In this document: piece by piece, positions 47,433 to 53,954 of the stretch
How positions within the stretch are numbered: position 1 is the first letter of the stretch
How the letters are laid out: the number at the start of each line of letters is the position of its first letter
Origin: Phenylobacterium sp.
GTDB lineage: Bacteria; Pseudomonadota; Alphaproteobacteria; Caulobacterales; Caulobacteraceae
Length of the DNA stretch: 64,000 bases
Reading direction: 5' to 3'
Assembly: GCF_030646615.1 (NCBI RefSeq)
Contig: NZ_JAUSLG010000011.1
Span: 1-64,000, forward strand
Position numbers and translations under genes: made by a program
The notes under the pieces: model-generated
Database searches by the model: none
Told to the model about the DNA's origin: nothing
What the model saw: only the letters and a program-made list of their open reading frames with translations

Positions 47433-48047
47433 CTAGAGTCGGCGGAGCACCCGCAGGCTCTTGACCGCCTCCACCTCCGCGAACAGGTCGGAGGCGAGCG
47501 CCCGCTGATAGATTTCGAAGGGCGGCCGGCCCCCGTCTGCGGGATCGGGAAAGACGTCGTGGATCGCCAGCAGTCCGCCGGGCGTGAGGTGCGGCGTCCA
47601 TCCGCGATAGTCGGCGAGCGCCGCCTCCAGGGTGTGGCCCCCATCGATGAACAGGAAGCCCAGCCGCCCGCCCCAGAGAGCAGCCACCGTCGCTGAGCGC
47701 CCCACGACGGGGACCACCGTGTCTTCCAGGCCCGCAGCCCGCAGGGTGCGGCGAAGGACGGGCAGGGTGTCCATGGCCCCGGCTTCGGCGTCCCAGAGGT
47801 CGGGGTCGTGGTACTCCCAGCCGGGCTGGTTTTCCTCTGACCCTCGGTGGTGGTCGATCGAGAACAGGGCGGCGCCCACGCTCTTGCAGGCTGTGCCGAT
47901 ATAGACCGCCGACTTGCCGCAATAGGCGCCGATCTCAAGACAGGCGCCGAGCGGCGCGCCAGCCAGGGCGGCTCGCTGCAAGGCTGCGCCCTCCGCCGGA
48001 TCGAGGAAGCCTTTGATCTGGTCGATATCCAGGGGCAGAGCCAGCAT
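47433..48047 (-). CDS. Class I SAM methyltransferase (Methyltransf_24 type)
   Basis: A 204-residue methyltransferase. Motif I is GACLEIGAYCGKSAVYIGTACK, followed by LFSIDHHRGSEENQ and FLFIDGGHTLEAALADY, the fingerprints of the CmcI/Methyltransf_24 family that acts on small hydroxylated substrates or sugars. ATG at 48047 is preceded by GAAGAGAC. It is minus-strand, convergent with the toroid gene (18-bp gap), and probably separately regulated. Confidence 0.85.
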   Translation of the reverse strand: MLALPLDIDQIKGFLDPAEGAALQRAALAGAPLGACLEIGAYCGKSAVYIGTACKSVGAALFSIDHHRGSEENQPGWEYHDPDLWDAEAGAMDTLPVLRRTLRAAGLEDTVVPVVGRSATVAALWGGRLGFLFIDGGHTLEAALADYRGWTPHLTPGGLLAIHDVFPDPADGGRPPFEIYQRALASDLFAEVEAVKSLRVLRRL

Positions 48048-48252
48048 TGTGGTGTCTCTTCGGGCAAGTCGGCAGGTTGGGGGTTCGCACATAGACGGCT
48101 TCTGGGCAGGATGCGATGGGCGCCTCGGTAGGATAGCGTGGTCGCAGGGCCACAGGAGTCAGCGGTCCAGGGCTTGCATCGGCGCCTGTTGGTCCGCTTT
48201 AGTTTGTCCGAATCCTGATCAGTCCGTCTGCAAAAAGGGGGCGCGTACCGGC

Positions 48253-48966
48253 ATGACGCTGCTCTTCTACGAGAATATAGCCCCGATCACCTTCGCTCAG
48301 CACGGGACGATGCGTCTTCGTACGCCTCTCGACTATGGGTTCGCTGGCGGCGCCAACGCCGTGCCTCTCACGCTGTCGGAAATTCCCCTGGCCGCGCCGT
48401 GGTACCCGATCGCCTTCAGCCGTGAGCCTAGGCCCCGGCCCCTGGCGATCCTGGGGCTGCGTGAGGGCGAGAACCTCTTTGTCGATAGTAAGGGCCGCTG
48501 GCGGGAGGGCGCCTATGTGCCCATCTATGTCCGTCGCTTTCCCTTCGTCCTCGGTCAGGAAGGCGAGCTGATCACCCTGTGCATCGAGAACCGCCCAGAG
48601 GTGCTGAGCGAGACCGCCGGCAAGCCCCTGTTCGATGGGGACAGGCCGAGCGCATTGCTGGAGTCGGCCATGACCTTTTGCCGCTCGGCCCAGGCCGCCG
48701 AGCGGGCCACCATACCCTTCGTCGAGCAACTGCTGGAGCTCGACCTGCTGGAAAGCCGCACCGCCGTGGTGGAGGTGCCAGAGGGCGCCAAGGTGTCCCT
48801 GTCAGGCTTTCTCACCATCGACGAGTCCCGCTTTCGGGGGCTCAGCGACGAGGTCTTTCTCGATCTGCGCCGCCGCGGCTGGCTCGCGGCCATCTACGCC
48901 CAGATGCAGGCCGCCCTGAACTGGGGCCGCCTCGCTGACCGGCTGGGGGACAGACAGGCGGCCTGA
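48253..48966 (+). CDS. SapC family protein
   Basis: A 237-residue protein matching SapC, a family linked to S-layer or surface proteins in Campylobacter, function unknown. It has FYENIAPITFAQHGTMRLRTPLDYGFAGGA, then VPIYVRRFPFVLGQEGELITLCIEN. ATG at 48253 is the only start that removes non-homologous upstream sequence. Its last 165 bp overlap antisense with the WecG-type gene. An association with the surface locus is inferred from position. Confidence 0.8.
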   Translation: MTLLFYENIAPITFAQHGTMRLRTPLDYGFAGGANAVPLTLSEIPLAAPWYPIAFSREPRPRPLAILGLREGENLFVDSKGRWREGAYVPIYVRRFPFVLGQEGELITLCIENRPEVLSETAGKPLFDGDRPSALLESAMTFCRSAQAAERATIPFVEQLLELDLLESRTAVVEVPEGAKVSLSGFLTIDESRFRGLSDEVFLDLRRRGWLAAIYAQMQAALNWGRLADRLGDRQAA

Positions 48967-49797
48967 GCGCGTCCGTCGCCCCAGGCGGCTCTCGCCGTGC
49001 GCCTGGCGGAGATCGGCCAGGGCCGGGCCGAGCAGGGACCACGGCTCCAGGCCATAGCGCCGCCAGAGCCGCCCGGGATCTGACACAAGACGGAACAGCC
49101 ATTCCAGTCCCGCCCGTCCCATCCAGCGGGGCGCGGCCTTTTGCGCCCCGGCCTCATAGTCGAAGGCTGCGCCCACCGGCAGGATGACGCAGGACGGCAG
49201 GGCGGCGCGGTTGTCGAGGATCCAGAACTCCTGCCGCGGCATCCCCATGCCGACCAGCAGGACGTCCGGCGCAAAGGCTGTGATCGTGTCGAGGACGGCG
49301 GCGTTGTCGGCGGAGTTGGGCTCAGGATCGAAATAGCCGTCGCGGACGCCGATCACCGCGCCGGGATAGGCCGCGGACAGGCGCTCAGCGGCCCGTTGCG
49401 CCACGCCGGGCGCCGCGCCCAGATAGAAGACCCGCCAGCCATGACGGTTGGCCAGACTCCAGAACTGGGGCCGCCAGTCGAGATAGGTGCAGCGATGGAA
49501 CGGCCGGGCAGGCCAACCCAGCAGGCCGGCGAAGACCAGCAGCGGGGTGGAGTCCGCCTCGATGAGGTCGGCCTCGGCGAAGAAGGCGGCCAGCTCGGGC
49601 CGCTTCTGGAGGAGATAGAGACTGTGCAGGTTGTGGTTGGCGATCAGAGCCGGCGCGCCGGTCGACACCCAGGTGGCGAGGAGGGTCATCACCTCTTCCG
49701 GGCGCGTCAGATCGATCTCACCGCCCAGAACGGCGACCCTTGTCCGAGGGCGATCGACCGCTCGGACCGAGGGGCGGGGGGACCTGCGCCGTTCCAC
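48802..49797 (-). CDS. WecG/TagA/CpsF glycosyltransferase with C-terminal extension
   Basis: A 331-residue inverting glycosyltransferase (GT26) that adds ManNAc-type sugar residues to lipid-linked precursors. Core signatures are ALIANHNLHSLYLLQKRPEL, ADLIEADSTPLLVFAG and VLLVGMGMPRQEFWI, with LPVGAAFDYEAGAQKAAP. The canonical domain ends near residue 275 (RLWRRYGLEPWSLLGPALADL). The remaining about 55 residues are encoded antisense to sapC through a 165-bp convergent overlap. The start is GTG at 49797. Confidence 0.87.
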   Translation of the reverse strand: MERRRSPRPSVRAVDRPRTRVAVLGGEIDLTRPEEVMTLLATWVSTGAPALIANHNLHSLYLLQKRPELAAFFAEADLIEADSTPLLVFAGLLGWPARPFHRCTYLDWRPQFWSLANRHGWRVFYLGAAPGVAQRAAERLSAAYPGAVIGVRDGYFDPEPNSADNAAVLDTITAFAPDVLLVGMGMPRQEFWILDNRAALPSCVILPVGAAFDYEAGAQKAAPRWMGRAGLEWLFRLVSDPGRLWRRYGLEPWSLLGPALADLRQAHGESRLGRRTRSGRLSVPQPVSEAAPVQGGLHLGVDGREPAAAAQIEKDLVAEPPKAGLVDGEKA

Positions 49798-49926: not shown

Positions 49927-50235
49927 GCGGACGTGGCGAAACTGGTAGACGCAGCAGACTTTGACTTCAGAGTGCCCGCGGGGAAATCCGCGGCGTAGAA
50001 CCGCTCAAATTCGGGGAAGGCTAAGGGGCGACCTAGGCTAATCCCGAGCCAAGCCCCGGTTCGCCGGCGGAAGGTGTAGAGACTAGACGGGCGGCGCCTA
50101 AGGCCATGCGGCTAGGGCGAAGGGATAGTCCAGACCACGAACAGCCCAGGTGACGGGCGGGCGGCGAAAGTCGAAGTGGTACGAAAATCTGTTTTCCGAA
50201 AGGAAGTGCGGGTTCGATTCCCGCCGTCCGCACCA
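49927..50235 (+). tRNA. tRNA-Leu(UAA) interrupted by a group I intron
   Basis: Exon 1 is 49927-49961 and exon 2 is 50184-50235 with encoded CCA (50233-50235), joining to an 87-nt class II tRNA. The acceptor stem GCGGACG pairs with CGTCCGC. The anticodon stem GCAGA pairs with TCTGT. The spliced loop is CTTAAAA, so the anticodon is UAA (Leu). The variable arm (TTTCC-GAAA-GGAA) and T-arm are normal. The gene is otherwise complete. Without splicing the tRNA cannot form, so the intron must self-splice. Confidence 0.95.
49962..50183 (+). ncRNA. Group I intron (IC3-like) in tRNA-Leu(UAA)
   Basis: The intron is 222 nt, inserted between anticodon bases U34 and A35. The conserved core is readable in order: P (AATTCGGGGAAGGCTAA, 50008-50024), Q (AATCCCGAGCCAAGC, 50040-50054), R (GTGTAGAGACTAGACGG, 50074-50090) and S (AAGGGATAGTCC, 50120-50131). 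GACTA in R pairs with TAGTC in S (P7). A P1 helix pairs exon ACTT with intron GAGT (49970-49973), placing the U-G wobble at the 5' splice site. The 3' end is the omega G at 50183. No open reading frame or homing endonuclease is inside, so the intron is a bare ribozyme. Confidence 0.93.
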
Positions 50236-50312: not shown

Positions 50313-50498
50313 ATGCCCGCCAAATCCGCCGCCCAGCAAAAGGCCGCCGGCGCCGCCCTGTCGGCCAAGCGCGGCGACACGCCCAAATCCGAGCTCAAGG
50401 GCGCCTCGAAATCGATGGTCAAGTCGATGAGCGAGAAGGAGCTCGAGAAGATGGCGTCCACCTCCCGCAAGGATAAGCCGCAGCACAAGTCCGACTGA
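50313..50498 (+). CDS. DUF3008 family small basic protein
   Basis: A 61-residue lysine- and serine-rich protein matching DUF3008: it begins MPAKSAAQQKAAGAALSAKRGD and continues KGASKSMVKSMSEKELEKMAST. The family is abundant in Proteobacteria with no known function, and may be stress-related. ATG is preceded by AGGAGAT. It lies 77 bp downstream of the tRNA. Confidence 0.88.
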   Translation: MPAKSAAQQKAAGAALSAKRGDTPKSELKGASKSMVKSMSEKELEKMASTSRKDKPQHKSD

Positions 50499-50600
50499 CG
50501 GCTCCACGGCGCGAGCTTCACCTGGCCGTGATTTCGTGCGACCCCTGCGCGGCTCGGCGGTTCGATCGCCCGGTCGTGGAATGGAGTTCCAAGCTTGGTC

Positions 50601-51590
50601 ATGGCGGCGCCCGTCATCGTCACCGGCGCAGCCGGCTTCATCGGCATGCACGTGGCCGAGCGCCTGCTGCTCCGGGGCCACGCCGTGGTCGGCGTCGACG
50701 AGTTCAACGCCTATTACGATCCGGCGCTGAAGGCCGCCCGTGCTGCGCGGCTGGAGGCCTATCCGGCCTTTCGCATGGTGCGCATGGATATTGCCGACGC
50801 CCCGGCCTTTGCGGCCCTTATGGCTGAGTGCGGCGCGCGGCGCGTCGTGCACCTGGCCGCCCAGGCCGGCGTGCGCCACTCCATCGAAAACCCCTTCGCC
50901 TATGAGCGCTCCAACCTGGCGGGCCACCTGTCGGTGATGGAGGCCTGCCGCCATGCGCCGGGCTTCGAGCACCTGGTCTATGCCTCGTCGAGCTCGGTCT
51001 ATGGGGATCGGCCCGGGGATGGCGCGGGCTTTCGCGAGGAGGACGCCGTCGATGCGCCGGTCTCGCTCTATGCGGCCACCAAGCGCGCCTGTGAGCTCAT
51101 GAGCCACGCCTATGGCAAGCTCTATGGCTTCCCGCAGACGGGCCTGCGGTTCTTTACCGTCTATGGCCCCTGGGGCCGGCCCGACATGGCCTATTTCTCG
51201 TTCACCGAGAAGATTCTGGCCGGCGAACCCATCGAGGTGTTCGGACAGGGCCAGATGGCCCGGGACTTCACCTATATCGACGACATCGTCGATGGCGTGA
51301 TCGGCGCCCTCGACCATCCCCCCGAGCCGGGGGTCAACCGCATCCTGAATATTGGCGACAGCCGGCCCGTGGGCCTGATGGACATGATCGCGCTGCTGGA
51401 AGCGGCGTTGGGGAAGACCGCGCAGAAGGTGTTCCTGCCCATGCAGCCCGGGGATGTGACGACCACCTATGCCGACATCTCCAAGCTCGCGGCGCTCACA
51501 GGCTATGCGCCCAAGGTCTCGCTGGAAGAGGGCATCCCGCGGTTCGTCGCCTGGTGGCGGGCCTTTCATGGCCAAGGCGTCGGACGGTGA
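50601..51590 (+). CDS. NAD-dependent epimerase, UDP-glucuronate 4-epimerase type
   Basis: A 329-residue extended SDR. GAAGFIGMHVAERLLLRGHAVVG gives the GxxGxxG NAD motif. YASSSSVYG and the catalytic YxxxK (YAATKRACELM) are present, and RFFTVYGPWGRPDMA is the signature of UDP-glucuronate/GalA 4-epimerases. It would make UDP-galacturonate for the polysaccharide. The start is ATG at 50601; TTG at 50595 is possible. It is the first gene of the biosynthetic cluster after the tRNA. Confidence 0.9.
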   Translation: MAAPVIVTGAAGFIGMHVAERLLLRGHAVVGVDEFNAYYDPALKAARAARLEAYPAFRMVRMDIADAPAFAALMAECGARRVVHLAAQAGVRHSIENPFAYERSNLAGHLSVMEACRHAPGFEHLVYASSSSVYGDRPGDGAGFREEDAVDAPVSLYAATKRACELMSHAYGKLYGFPQTGLRFFTVYGPWGRPDMAYFSFTEKILAGEPIEVFGQGQMARDFTYIDDIVDGVIGALDHPPEPGVNRILNIGDSRPVGLMDMIALLEAALGKTAQKVFLPMQPGDVTTTYADISKLAALTGYAPKVSLEEGIPRFVAWWRAFHGQGVGR

Positions 51591-51794
51591 TGCGCAGCGT
51601 TCGCGCAAGGAAGCCGAGCGGCCTGTGATGCAGGCGCAATAAAATCAGCCGATAAGCAGCCGCCGCGCAGAATGAGCGGCTTTAGGCTTGGCCGGCGCAG
51701 GACTTGCACGCTAACCGAGAACTGGCGCTTTTTCGCGCGAAGGGGCGTATCTGGCTCCCAACGCGATACGCCGCAGTGCGGGGGAAGATCTCAG

Positions 51795-53954
51795 TTGGCC
51801 ATCTATCCCGTCATCATGTGCGGCGGCTCAGGCTCGCGCCTGTGGCCGGCGTCACGTCCGTCCCATCCCAAGCAGTTTCTCCCCCTCGTGGGCGCGCGGT
51901 CCATGTTCCAGGAGACCGTCCTGCGGGTCGTCGACCTGGGACAGGCAGGCGACATGGTCATCGTGGCCGGCATCGCCCATGCCGAAATGATCGCCGCCCA
52001 GCTGGGCGAAATCGGCGTCTCGGCCACGGTTCTGCTGGAGCCTGAGCCCCGGGACTCCGCCCCGGCCATGGCGGCGGCCTGCGCCTGGATCGCGGGGCGC
52101 GATGCTGAGGGCGTCGCCATTGTGGTCGCCGCCGATCACCACATGCCCGATGGCGCCGCCTTCCGGGCCGCCGCACTGACGGCTGTTGACGCCGCCCGCC
52201 AGGGCCAGATCGTCACCCTAGGGATGCGCCCGGATGGCCCTTCGGTCGCCTATGGCTACATATCGCCGGGCGAGGCGACCGGGCCTGTGCGCCCGGTGCA
52301 GGCCTTTGTCGAGAAGCCTGACGCGGCGACGGCCCAGGCCTATATCGAGGCCGGATATCTTTGGAACAGCGGCAACTTCGTCGTGGCCGCCGACGTGCTC
52401 ATGGCCGAACTGGACGCCTTCGCCCCGGCCATCGCCGAGGCCGCCCGGGCCGCCGTCAGTACATGCGCCGCGGGGCAGAGCGTGCTGGCCGAGACGTTCC
52501 GGACGGCGCCCAAGATTTCCATCGACTATGCAGTCATGGAGAAGACCCGGCGGGCCGCTGTCCTCCCCGTGGACTTCGCCTGGTCCGACCTCGGCGCCTG
52601 GGACGCGGTCTGGCAGGCCAGCGACAAGGACGCCAGGGGCAACGGCGTCCGGGGCGAGGCGCTGATGGTCGGCTCGACCGGCTGCCTGGTCCGGGCGCCG
52701 GCCGGGATGCAGGTGACCCTGGTGGGGGTCAAGGACCTCGCCGTGGTGGCCGATGGCGGCCAGATCCTGGTCTGCGACCTGGCCTCCAGCCAGCAGGTCA
52801 AGACCGCCGTCGATCAGCTAAAGGCGCAGGGCCGTGAGACCGTGGCGCCGGTCGCGCCGTTCGACACGGTGGATCAGGCGGCCGCCTGGTTCGACCAGTG
52901 GCTGAAGACCAGCGCCCTGCCGCTGTGGTGGACCCTGGGCGCCGACCATGTGCGGGGCGGCTTCCGCGAGGCCCTTACGCCGGAGGGCGCGCCGGTCGAC
53001 GCGCCGCGACGCTCCCGGGTCCAGACCCGCCAGACCTTCGTCTACGCCACTGCTGGCCTGATGGGCTGGCAGGGACCCTGGCGTCAGGCCGCCTGGCACG
53101 GGATGGACTATTTCCTGTCCCGCTATCGTCGCCCCGACGGCCTGTTCCGCGCCGTGGTGTCGAACGAGGGCGAGCCGGTGGACGAGACCGCGGCCCTCTA
53201 TGACCAGGCCTTCGCCCTGCTGGCCATGGCCACCCTGAACCAGGCCGATCCCGGCCATACGGACCTGGCCGCCGAGGGGCAGCGCCTGCTGGCGGCCCTT
53301 CAGGTCATGCGTCATCCGGCGGGCGGCTTCCGCGAGCAAGGCGCCCATCCCTTCCAGGCCAACGCCCACATGCACCTGCTCGAGGCCGCCATGGCCTGGG
53401 CCGAGGCGGGCGGCGGCCCGGAATGGCAGGCCCTGGCCGCCGAGATCATCGAACTGGCCCTGACCCGCTTCATCGATGCCGACGGCGGCGCCTTAAGGGA
53501 ATTCTTCGACTCCGACTGGGCGCCGGCGCCCGGCGAGGACGGCCGCCTGATCGAGCCCGGCCACCAGTTCGAATGGGCCTGGCTGCTGGAACGCTGGGCC
53601 AGGCGGACCGGCGAGGCCCGCTGCCACCAGGCCGCCCGCCGCCTCTACGCCGCCGGTCTCCGGGGCGTCGACGCCAAGCGCGGCGTGGCCATCAACGCCC
53701 TGAACGACGACTTCACCGTGCGCGACGCCAATGCCCGCCTGTGGCCGCAGACCGAGTGGCTGAAGGCCGCCCTGATCCTGGGCGAGGACGTTCTGGCGCC
53801 GGCCCGCGCCCTGGTCCGCTACCTCGATACGCCAGCACGGGGCGTCTGGGCCGACGCCTGCGAGGCCAGCGGCCGTTTCCGAACCGAGCCGGCCCCGGCC
53901 AGTTCATTCTATCACCTGGCGGCAGCCTGTATGATGTTTCCAAGTATAGGCTGA
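51795..53954 (+). CDS. Fused mannose-1-phosphate guanylyltransferase / AGE-family sugar isomerase
   Basis: A 719-residue fusion. The N-terminal half (about 1-345) is a GDP-mannose pyrophosphorylase: IMCGGSGSRLWPASRPSHPKQFLPL, plus FVEKP and WNSGNFVV. The C-terminal half (about 365-719) is an AGE/mannose-6-phosphate isomerase-like alpha/alpha barrel: WWTLGADHVRGGFREALTPEG, QTFVYATAGLMGW, and EPGHQFEWAWLLERW. Together these could take fructose-6-P to mannose-6-P and mannose-1-P to GDP-mannose, though a phosphomannomutase is needed between. TTG at 51795 (GGGGGAAG upstream) is preferred over ATG at 51672, which adds non-homologous residues. Confidence 0.87.
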   Translation: MAIYPVIMCGGSGSRLWPASRPSHPKQFLPLVGARSMFQETVLRVVDLGQAGDMVIVAGIAHAEMIAAQLGEIGVSATVLLEPEPRDSAPAMAAACAWIAGRDAEGVAIVVAADHHMPDGAAFRAAALTAVDAARQGQIVTLGMRPDGPSVAYGYISPGEATGPVRPVQAFVEKPDAATAQAYIEAGYLWNSGNFVVAADVLMAELDAFAPAIAEAARAAVSTCAAGQSVLAETFRTAPKISIDYAVMEKTRRAAVLPVDFAWSDLGAWDAVWQASDKDARGNGVRGEALMVGSTGCLVRAPAGMQVTLVGVKDLAVVADGGQILVCDLASSQQVKTAVDQLKAQGRETVAPVAPFDTVDQAAAWFDQWLKTSALPLWWTLGADHVRGGFREALTPEGAPVDAPRRSRVQTRQTFVYATAGLMGWQGPWRQAAWHGMDYFLSRYRRPDGLFRAVVSNEGEPVDETAALYDQAFALLAMATLNQADPGHTDLAAEGQRLLAALQVMRHPAGGFREQGAHPFQANAHMHLLEAAMAWAEAGGGPEWQALAAEIIELALTRFIDADGGALREFFDSDWAPAPGEDGRLIEPGHQFEWAWLLERWARRTGEARCHQAARRLYAAGLRGVDAKRGVAINALNDDFTVRDANARLWPQTEWLKAALILGEDVLAPARALVRYLDTPARGVWADACEASGRFRTEPAPASSFYHLAAACMMFPSIG

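Follow-up and report, generated by a model that had tools for sequence, protein, structure and literature searches.

Group I introns interrupt tRNA-Arg(CCU) in Agrobacterium and tRNA-Ile(CAU) in Azoarcus, and Vepritskiy et al. are said to have described in 2002 a tRNA-Leu(UAA) intron in a gammaproteobacterium. For the gammaproteobacterial sulfur bacteria Beggiatoa and Thiomargarita, the accessible part of one account reports intron-interrupted tRNA-Leu-TAA and tRNA-Arg-TCT genes (PMC4853749). A proteobacterial tRNA-Leu case was thus already known, and judging from that excerpt it is the published case nearest to ours that we found. Introns in tRNA Ile2 are on record, in an excerpt as well, for Acidovorax and Burkholderia (PMC8450103), and a further partial text counts 'few' alpha- and betaproteobacteria with such introns (PMC4033280). 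Caulobacteraceae are not named in the portions of the proteobacterial tRNA-intron accounts compared here. We describe below a tRNA-Leu(UAA) intron of this family, located in a 64-kb stretch of Phenylobacterium DNA (hereafter the window, meaning the whole stretch that was analysed).

The split gene and its intron

At the level of sequence, we confirmed that positions 49927-50235 correspond to a tRNA-Leu(UAA) gene split by a 222-nt group I intron (Table 1). The case for this identity combines a covariance-model match, covariation in 33 sequences, an intact tRNA upon splicing and an intronless orthologue in genome G190, which belongs to the window's genus group. Exon 1 comprises 35 nt and its 3′ end reads GCAGACTT; exon 2 comprises 52 nt, starts with AAAATCTG and has CCA as its final bases. 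When spliced in silico, the exons generate an 87-nt, intact class II tRNA, called tRNA-Leu(taa) by ARAGORN, which agrees with what the sequence-only reading had proposed for the joined exons. When the unspliced stretch was analysed with the intron option, ARAGORN detected the gene, misplaced the junction and labelled it Leu(aag); run without that option, the program reported no tRNA across the 64-kb window. Insertion between U34 and A35, also proposed earlier, is borne out both by the reading of the spliced tRNA and by the empty site in G190. An insert of 222 nt is too short for the usual homing endonuclease; the intron is compact and has no room for an ORF.

Table 1. Positions of the features in the window and of comparison elements in other genomes
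Feature	Span	Strand	Evidence
WecG/TagA/CpsF glycosyltransferase gene, upstream	48802..49797	-	PF03808 E 2e-51; syntenic in G190 and sister loci
Split tRNA-Leu(UAA) gene with group I intron	49927-50235	+	exons and RF00028
tRNA-Leu(UAA) 5′ exon, C32 U33 U34 at its end	49927..49961	+	ARAGORN Leu(taa) on spliced form
P1: 49958-49963 with 49968-49973; U34.G wobble 49961/49970 at 5′ splice site	49958..49973	+	U.G 33/33
Group I intron, 222 nt, U34/A35 junction, omega G last	49962..50183	+	RF00028, R1, 33-row alignment
P2: 49976-49982 with 49987-49993, GAAA loop 49983-49986	49976..49993	+	89.6% of cells paired
P3: 50001-50006 with 50089-50094	50001..50094	+	100% of cells paired
P4: 50011-50016 with 50042-50047, encloses P5	50011..50047	+	invariant 33/33
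P5: 50019-50022 with 50036-50039	within P4	+	2/4 drawn pairs do not form in most rows
P6: 50048-50049 with 50074-50075; P6a: 50054-50055 with 50069-50070	50048..50075	+	invariant 33/33
P7, guanosine-binding helix: 50079 and 50081-50085 with 50126-50131, bulged A 50080	50079..50131	+	invariant 33/33
P8: 50095-50099 with 50115-50119; inner helix 50102-50105 with 50110-50113	50095..50119	+	double changes in 5/9 pairs
P9: 50134-50138 with 50176-50180	50134..50180	+	98.2% of cells paired
P9.1: 50144-50147 with 50155-50158		+	89.1% of cells paired; double changes in 4/4 pairs
P9.2: 50162-50165 with 50170-50173, GAAA loop 50166-50169		+	100% of cells paired
tRNA-Leu(UAA) 3′ exon, CCA encoded	50184..50235	+	ARAGORN on spliced form
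DUF3008 small protein gene, downstream	50313..50498	+	PF11450 E 3e-30; same position in 3/5 sister loci
NAD-dependent epimerase gene, downstream	50595..51590	+	PF01370 E 5e-56; syntenic in G190 and sister loci
Split-gene elements with intron-bearing replacement: L285 (G155), L349 (G183), L346 (G163), L347 (G169), L280 (G116), L284 (G028), L344 (G087), L345 (G078), L096 (G297)			
Same integrase family at Leu(CAA): L373 (G006), L382 (G074), L367 (G190)			
Same integrase family at Leu(UAG): L371 (G124), L370 (G032), L364 (G128), L372 (G154)			

At the Rfam gathering cut-off, no RNA family matched in the window. In an E-value search of 451 bases, RF00028 (Intron_gpI) aligned over its full model (1-253) to 49952-50144 with 38.4 bits, below the gathering score of 50, and E 2.1e-8. 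The Rfam comparison suggested from the sequence alone thus yields a match, if one under the gathering score, and together with a 61-pair structure it upholds the group I type of the 222-nt insert. When the whole genome was scanned with RF00028, the window's intron was the sole match at E ≤ 1 (E 4.3e-8). Our own model, R1, gives it 225.4 bits, a score to be read with the window's membership of the R1 training set.

The structure was analysed on an alignment of 33 rows, the window plus 32 Caulobacteraceae relatives, with P1 to P9.2 drawn by hand on the window's row. The P3-P9 and P4-P6 helices with the P3/P7 pseudoknot could be drawn on the intron; P5 is poor. At the 61 named pairs, 94.0% of 1984 cells hold standard pairs, versus 87.4% in shuffles; double changes occur in 19 of the 61 pairs, which none of 500 shuffles equalled. 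The covariation score is 0.203 versus 0.093 in shuffled alignments, and 0/500 shuffles reached any of five measures. Sliding the structure by 1-3 columns leaves 25.5-47.7% of cells paired, a comparison in which drawing on the window's row favours the structure over the slides. As for single helices, P1 shows double changes in its two loop-proximal pairs, P2 is changed on both sides in six of seven pairs, one P3 pair is U-A instead of C-G in 12/33 introns and one P8 pair A-U instead of G-C in 11/33. Covariation is silent on P4, P6 and P7, as these helices do not vary among the 33 introns. By folding energy, the precursor does not stand out (z -2.04; 1/100 shuffles as good). All 33 introns share the same site, the same U.G in P1, the final G and the core, so that the P1 wobble and the omega G noted at the outset are present in every aligned intron.

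We take the intron, in which P2 and P9.2 both end in a GAAA loop, to be of the tRNA type, probably of subgroup IC3. Its P7 pair G50081-C50130 is presumably the equivalent of Tetrahymena G264-C311. A P8 motif, CCUAAG..UAUGG, which we take to be the 11-nt tetraloop receptor, is exact in 3 of the 33 introns and has a near form in the window.

The proposed route to a mature tRNA starts from an intron in the anticodon loop of the genome's sole known tRNA-Leu(UAA) gene, in what is apparently its native chromosomal place. Upon transcription, the P1 U.G pair would hold the 5′ splice site of the precursor; an external guanosine, bound in P7, would attack that site; the freed U34 would then attack after the omega G, and the joined exons would form a normal tRNA reading UUA. 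It could be argued that the intron alone is not an efficient ribozyme and that a host protein is required for splicing. Loops of the GAAA type in P2 and P9.2 are known from self-splicing tRNA introns, and these loops, together with the compact core, make such a requirement unlikely here. It retains some weight because some group I introns do need a protein, CYT-18 being the one named in the accessible part of PMC3984707.

Distribution and phylogeny

A full-length intron gene was found in 33 of 199 sampled Caulobacteraceae genomes, so the Caulobacteraceae case is not rare. Searching the 199 genomes with R1 returned the same 33 plus four weak, unrelated matches (G051, G067, G079 and G084), which hold another group I-like intron and were kept outside the 33. 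This other intron lies in a gene that by eye is phage-capsid-like, in genomes of the window's genus group (L273-L276, in G051, G084, G079 and G067, respectively). Genome G028 carries, besides its complete gene, a decayed second copy of a different sequence type, consisting of the 3′ part of the intron and exon 2 (L068, G028:C14:18833-19026).

In a sample of the alphaproteobacterial class, R1 matched 50 of 385 genomes at E ≤ 0.001, with 59 matches, 57 of which were read. They comprise 18 Leu(UAA), the window included, 7 Arg(CCU), 3 Lys(UUU), 3 Thr(GGU) and 2 Thr(CGU) genes, and these are the only class-level identities that we used. For the other 24 places, ARAGORN was blank on 12 and gave apparently shifted junctions on 12 (Leu gag 3, Stop 2, Thr agt 2, Leu caa 1, Phe, two Ser and Gln); one of the two Thr(CGU) junctions also looks shifted. 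The alphaproteobacterial Arg(CCU) introns are L097, L099, L100, L105, L107, L225 and L231. Group I introns of the same class are located in tRNA-Lys(UUU) (L098, L104, L106), tRNA-Thr(GGU) (L235, L236, L241) and tRNA-Thr(CGU) (L238, L240); we know of no printed report of group I introns in tRNA-Lys or tRNA-Thr hosts.

A pattern scan of named species genomes detected at least 116 stretches, at least 107 of which splice in silico to Leu(taa). These figures are lower bounds from which no frequency is drawn; splice sites were searched until Leu(taa) appeared, a lenient procedure, and 9 of the stretches lack ARAGORN confirmation. The same site is occupied in alphaproteobacteria, other Pseudomonadota, Acidobacteriota and cyanobacteria, the last with at least 18 ARAGORN-confirmed rows obtained by the same pattern. 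One acidobacterial tRNA-Leu(UAA) intron (L213) is 681 nt long and has on the opposite strand an ORF of 167 aa that by eye is HNH endonuclease-like.

A tree of 166 introns (213 columns), built by a quick method and with many open forks, includes rows from alphaproteobacteria, betaproteobacteria, two gammaproteobacteria, Acidobacteriota and cyanobacteria and some unplaced records. Left out were the 9 stretches unconfirmed by ARAGORN, L213 and class rows outside Leu(UAA), Arg(CCU) and Lys(UUU), and four junctions that overshot GACTT were shifted back. In this tree, 17 of 18 cyanobacterial rows and one gammaproteobacterial MAG form a clade (support 100) that does not contain the window's intron; among 64 chosen rows, the 12 cyanobacterial ones, chosen from the 18, again form a single clade (100/100). 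The window's intron pairs with that of a Caulobacteraceae MAG, L128 (95% identity over 211 columns, support 99). Around this pair lies a wider set of 27 rows, still open at support 89, with the L034-L038 group, alphaproteobacteria of other families and one gammaproteobacterium, while other Caulobacterales introns, those of other Phenylobacterium included, fall into a separate 25-row set (support 91, also open). Ranked by intron identity to the window's, the top 15 rows all come from alphaproteobacteria.

A single clade of all 19 chosen Caulobacteraceae introns was rejected by the AU test (p 0.009, a value that is too kind, as the grouping was named after the first tree had been seen). The Caulobacteraceae thus probably harbour two or more lineages of the intron, which implies horizontal movement. 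Exon and intron identity to the window correlate (rho 0.58, n=155), a relation that does not separate transfer of the whole gene from transfer of the intron only.

The sequence-only reading had offered two origins, descent or transfer from a cyanobacterium, which turned out to be too narrow. Single descent within the Caulobacteraceae is contradicted by the rejected clade, and the phylogeny against cyanobacterial tRNA-Leu introns leaves the window's intron outside their clade in both trees. In favour of a recent acquisition from a cyanobacterium, one could cite the shared insertion site, the cyanobacterial matches to the same pattern and an AU test that does not reject the window's intron and the cyanobacterial rows as one side (p 0.375). 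We regard such an acquisition as very improbable, considering that the cyanobacterial introns form their own clade and that the rows closest in identity are all alphaproteobacterial; for these two reasons, the sequences do not support recent cyanobacterial import. An older connection is compatible with the AU tests, which reject neither the grouping above nor that of the window's lineage with the cyanobacteria (p 0.617).

The locus and the probable need for its tRNA

The gene is located between the same neighbours as in G190, whose orthologous tRNA-Leu(UAA) gene is intronless and has exons 95.4% identical to those of the window. Upstream, G190 has the WecG/TagA-like gene and a gene like that at 48013-48966, and downstream the epimerase and a gene like that at 51672-53954, in both cases in the order of the window; between tRNA and epimerase, G190 has about 2.3 kb more than the window. 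In the rpoB tree, G026, G140, G144 and G196, all of which have the intron, group together (100/100), and G190 is the sister of this clade (100/99). This tree is without the window's genome, the rpoB marker having failed for it and for three others (4/30 genomes), so the window's genome was placed with gyrB and parE trees of 13 genomes. Both put it inside the intron-bearing clade (100/100 each); G190 is the sister in the parE tree (100/100) and is placed without resolution in the gyrB tree. A gain in the intron-bearing clade and a loss in G190 both fit. Over the 26 genomes of the rpoB tree, intron presence needs 8 changes. With its locus shared with G190, the window's gene looks native to the chromosome.

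We next consider whether the cell has another tRNA for UUA. A tRNA scan of the genome gave 41 matches, all of which were read with ARAGORN, the Leu genes being UAG, CAG, CAA and GAG. Neither these matches nor an intronless-UAA pattern search of the whole assembly revealed a second tRNA-Leu(UAA) gene; another intact copy, which had been named beforehand as evidence against the intron, is accordingly not found in the assembly. The assembly consists of 105 contigs and has a listed completeness of 100, yet it contains no rpoB match and must have gaps, so the absence of another UAA gene is strong, not absolute. UUA is the rarest sense codon, with 6 occurrences in 15,170 codons (38 long GC3-rich ORFs of the window), and is still used. 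In other known cases, too, the interrupted tRNA (Arg CCU, Ile CAU) serves a codon seldom used in GC-rich genomes. Since UUA does occur and the searches turned up no second UAA gene, the cell presumably depends on this tRNA, from which we infer that the window's intron is spliced.

That the intron is dead, the tRNA gene a pseudogene and UUA decoded otherwise is scarcely credible: the extreme rarity of UUA would suit it, and the intact tRNA formed by the exons, a core invariant across 33 introns and the missing second UAA gene speak against it. The best explanation, of which we are highly confident, is an ORF-less group I intron of a widely spread tRNA-Leu(UAA) family that comes and goes and has moved horizontally.

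Integrase elements and comparison with known systems

In six genomes of the family, a second, partial tRNA-Leu match, corresponding to a 5′ half, is located 1.5-5 kb upstream of the intron-bearing gene, and an integrase gene sits between the two. Three of these proteins match the PHROGs integrase family phrog_1 (E 2e-28 to 3e-34) and have no NCBIfam match; against PF00589 they reach E 9e-6 to 3e-5 with 24.3, 25.3 and 26.0 bits, the cut-off being 27.1. The label 'tyrosine' integrase comes from this PF00589 match, just under the cut-off.

Among 152 distinct intron-bearing loci, the 130 with at least 1.3 kb of upstream sequence were examined. An integrase lies upstream on the same strand at 28 of them, which are not independent of one another, and within 200 nt of the tRNA at 24 of the 28; the upstream stretch searched holds none at the other 102. 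At 23 of the 28 loci, distributed over Caulobacterales, Hyphomicrobiales, Sphingomonadales, Acidobacteriota and further class members, a 5′ half with GACTTAAAA precedes the integrase, and no half-gene was found by that search at the remaining five (L046, L147, L165, L192 and L080). The search required GACT[TC]AAA and is blind to an element in an intron-bearing target. When BLAST was used without this requirement, the half-gene continued through AAAA in 11 of 12 family elements; that of G163, outside the 350 bases covered by the BLAST, was observed by another comparison.

The target can be recognized from both of its sides. Brevundimonas-like genome G151 has a whole, intronless native tRNA-Leu(UAA) gene. 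Its upstream flank, matched at 95% identity in G183 and G078 (over 4.7 kb) and in G155 (over the 2.6 kb available), ends in the anticodon loop, and its downstream flank reappears at G155:C1:172492 and G183:C1:1170623 (94%), which delimits elements of about 12 and 50 kb, respectively. We searched 21 genomes, including 16 with an element, for orphan 3′ halves by a strict pattern; nine of the 16 had one, and the other seven gave no match. In these nine genomes an intronless native gene is cut at GACTTAAAA: ARAGORN reads no tRNA across the junction of the orphan 3′ half, and the joined halves are read as Leu(taa). The sequence common to both ends is GACTTAAAA alone in five genomes (G087, G183, G155, G078 and G169) and is longer around it, 13 to 23 nt, in G028, G116, G163 and G297. 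In eight of the nine, a single contig holds both halves with the intron-bearing gene between them; in G078, the 3′ half is on another contig. Among the cargo of the G155 element are AbiEi/AbiEii-like proteins and a CBASS-like oligonucleotide cyclase accompanied by a 2TM effector. As GACTT precedes the intron in all 28 replacement genes, each of them would hold the core if it had no intron.

These arrangements led us to a tentative reading, to which we give somewhat less than even weight: integrase elements cut the intronless gene at GACTTAAAA, the intron that interrupts the core of the carried gene acts as a shield, the elements disseminate the intron, and native genes become immune on acquiring it. 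The intron-bearing replacement would yield a normal tRNA while its DNA would stop being a target, and the element would then be unable to hit the gene that keeps the host alive. If this is true, tRNA introns without an ORF gain a selected role, and a native gene that has acquired an intron, such as that of the window, would be immune to the elements.

The integrase was found in 29 of the 199 family genomes at E ≤ 1e-50. It is less than 6 kb from the intron-bearing gene in 12 of the 33 intron genomes and elsewhere in five more (G006, G042, G088, G137 and G149). In the 12 integrase genomes that have no full-length intron gene, the 13 integrase surroundings contain neither an intact tRNA-Leu(UAA) gene nor a UAA half-gene. 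At Leu(CAA), the replacement gene that adjoins the integrase is intronless, and in it the core of the cut gene, GACTCAAAA, has become GATTCAAAA in both G006 and G190 and CACTCAAAA in G074. In the Leu(UAG) elements (G124, G032, G128 and G154), the cut gene is represented by a 3′ half on the opposite strand; compared by eye, the replacements, again intronless, differ from that half beside the loop. Taken together, the CAA, UAG and UAA elements show that replacements adjacent to the integrase have a changed core, either by bases or by an intron. As far as sequence comparison goes, this suits the shielding role and falls short of proving it. Counting against that role are the intronless CAA and UAG replacements, from which it follows that an intron is not needed in general, the tRNA-Leu(CAA) gene of G123, 7.5 kb from the integrase and with an unchanged core, and the 102 of 130 loci that have no integrase in the upstream stretch searched. 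The mutual dependence of the 28 loci that do have one, the five of these without a half-gene in the search and the seven element genomes without a 3′-half match weigh on the same side.

The window has no integrase of the element family in its 64 kb (E ≤ 1e-3) and no second exon-1 site. The genome as a whole has no integrase match at E ≤ 1e-50 and no match to the 3′-half pattern, and its only other 5′-half match is a tRNA-Leu(UAG). The window's gene is thus an ordinary member of the intron family, to which shielding applies at most as acquired immunity.

The link between intron-bearing genes and the elements that contain them, whose cut in the intronless gene falls on the same nine bases, makes it possible to test why ORF-less introns persist in needed tRNA genes and how they travel. 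A search of the open-access literature, covering titles and the beginnings of abstracts, found no Caulobacteraceae tRNA-Leu intron and no intron-shielded replacement tRNA.

The window's intron belongs to a widely spread bacterial tRNA-Leu(UAA) family that is gained and lost among close relatives and is horizontally mobile. With the cyanobacterial tRNA-Leu(UAA) intron it shares the gene, the U34/A35 site and a similar size and core; it differs in that the cyanobacterial introns form a separate clade in the intron trees, the deep order being open. Other proteobacterial tRNA introns are likewise of group I and in tRNA genes, but in other genes or classes. The relatives found in integrase elements resemble tRNA-borne genomic islands as the available part of the Islander account describes them (PMC4383910), with an integrase, a tRNA target and an anticodon subsite; in those islands the attP fragment regenerates the target, whereas here both halves are left orphan, flanking a complete intron-bearing gene. 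The proposal of Sugahara et al. (2012), as relayed in the accessible portion of PMC8371274, that archaeal attP sequences are vectors of tRNA introns, likewise has an integrative element spreading a tRNA intron. In that proposal an intron within attP enters the target, whereas in the relatives described here the carried gene is separate and whole, and its intron interrupts the att core.
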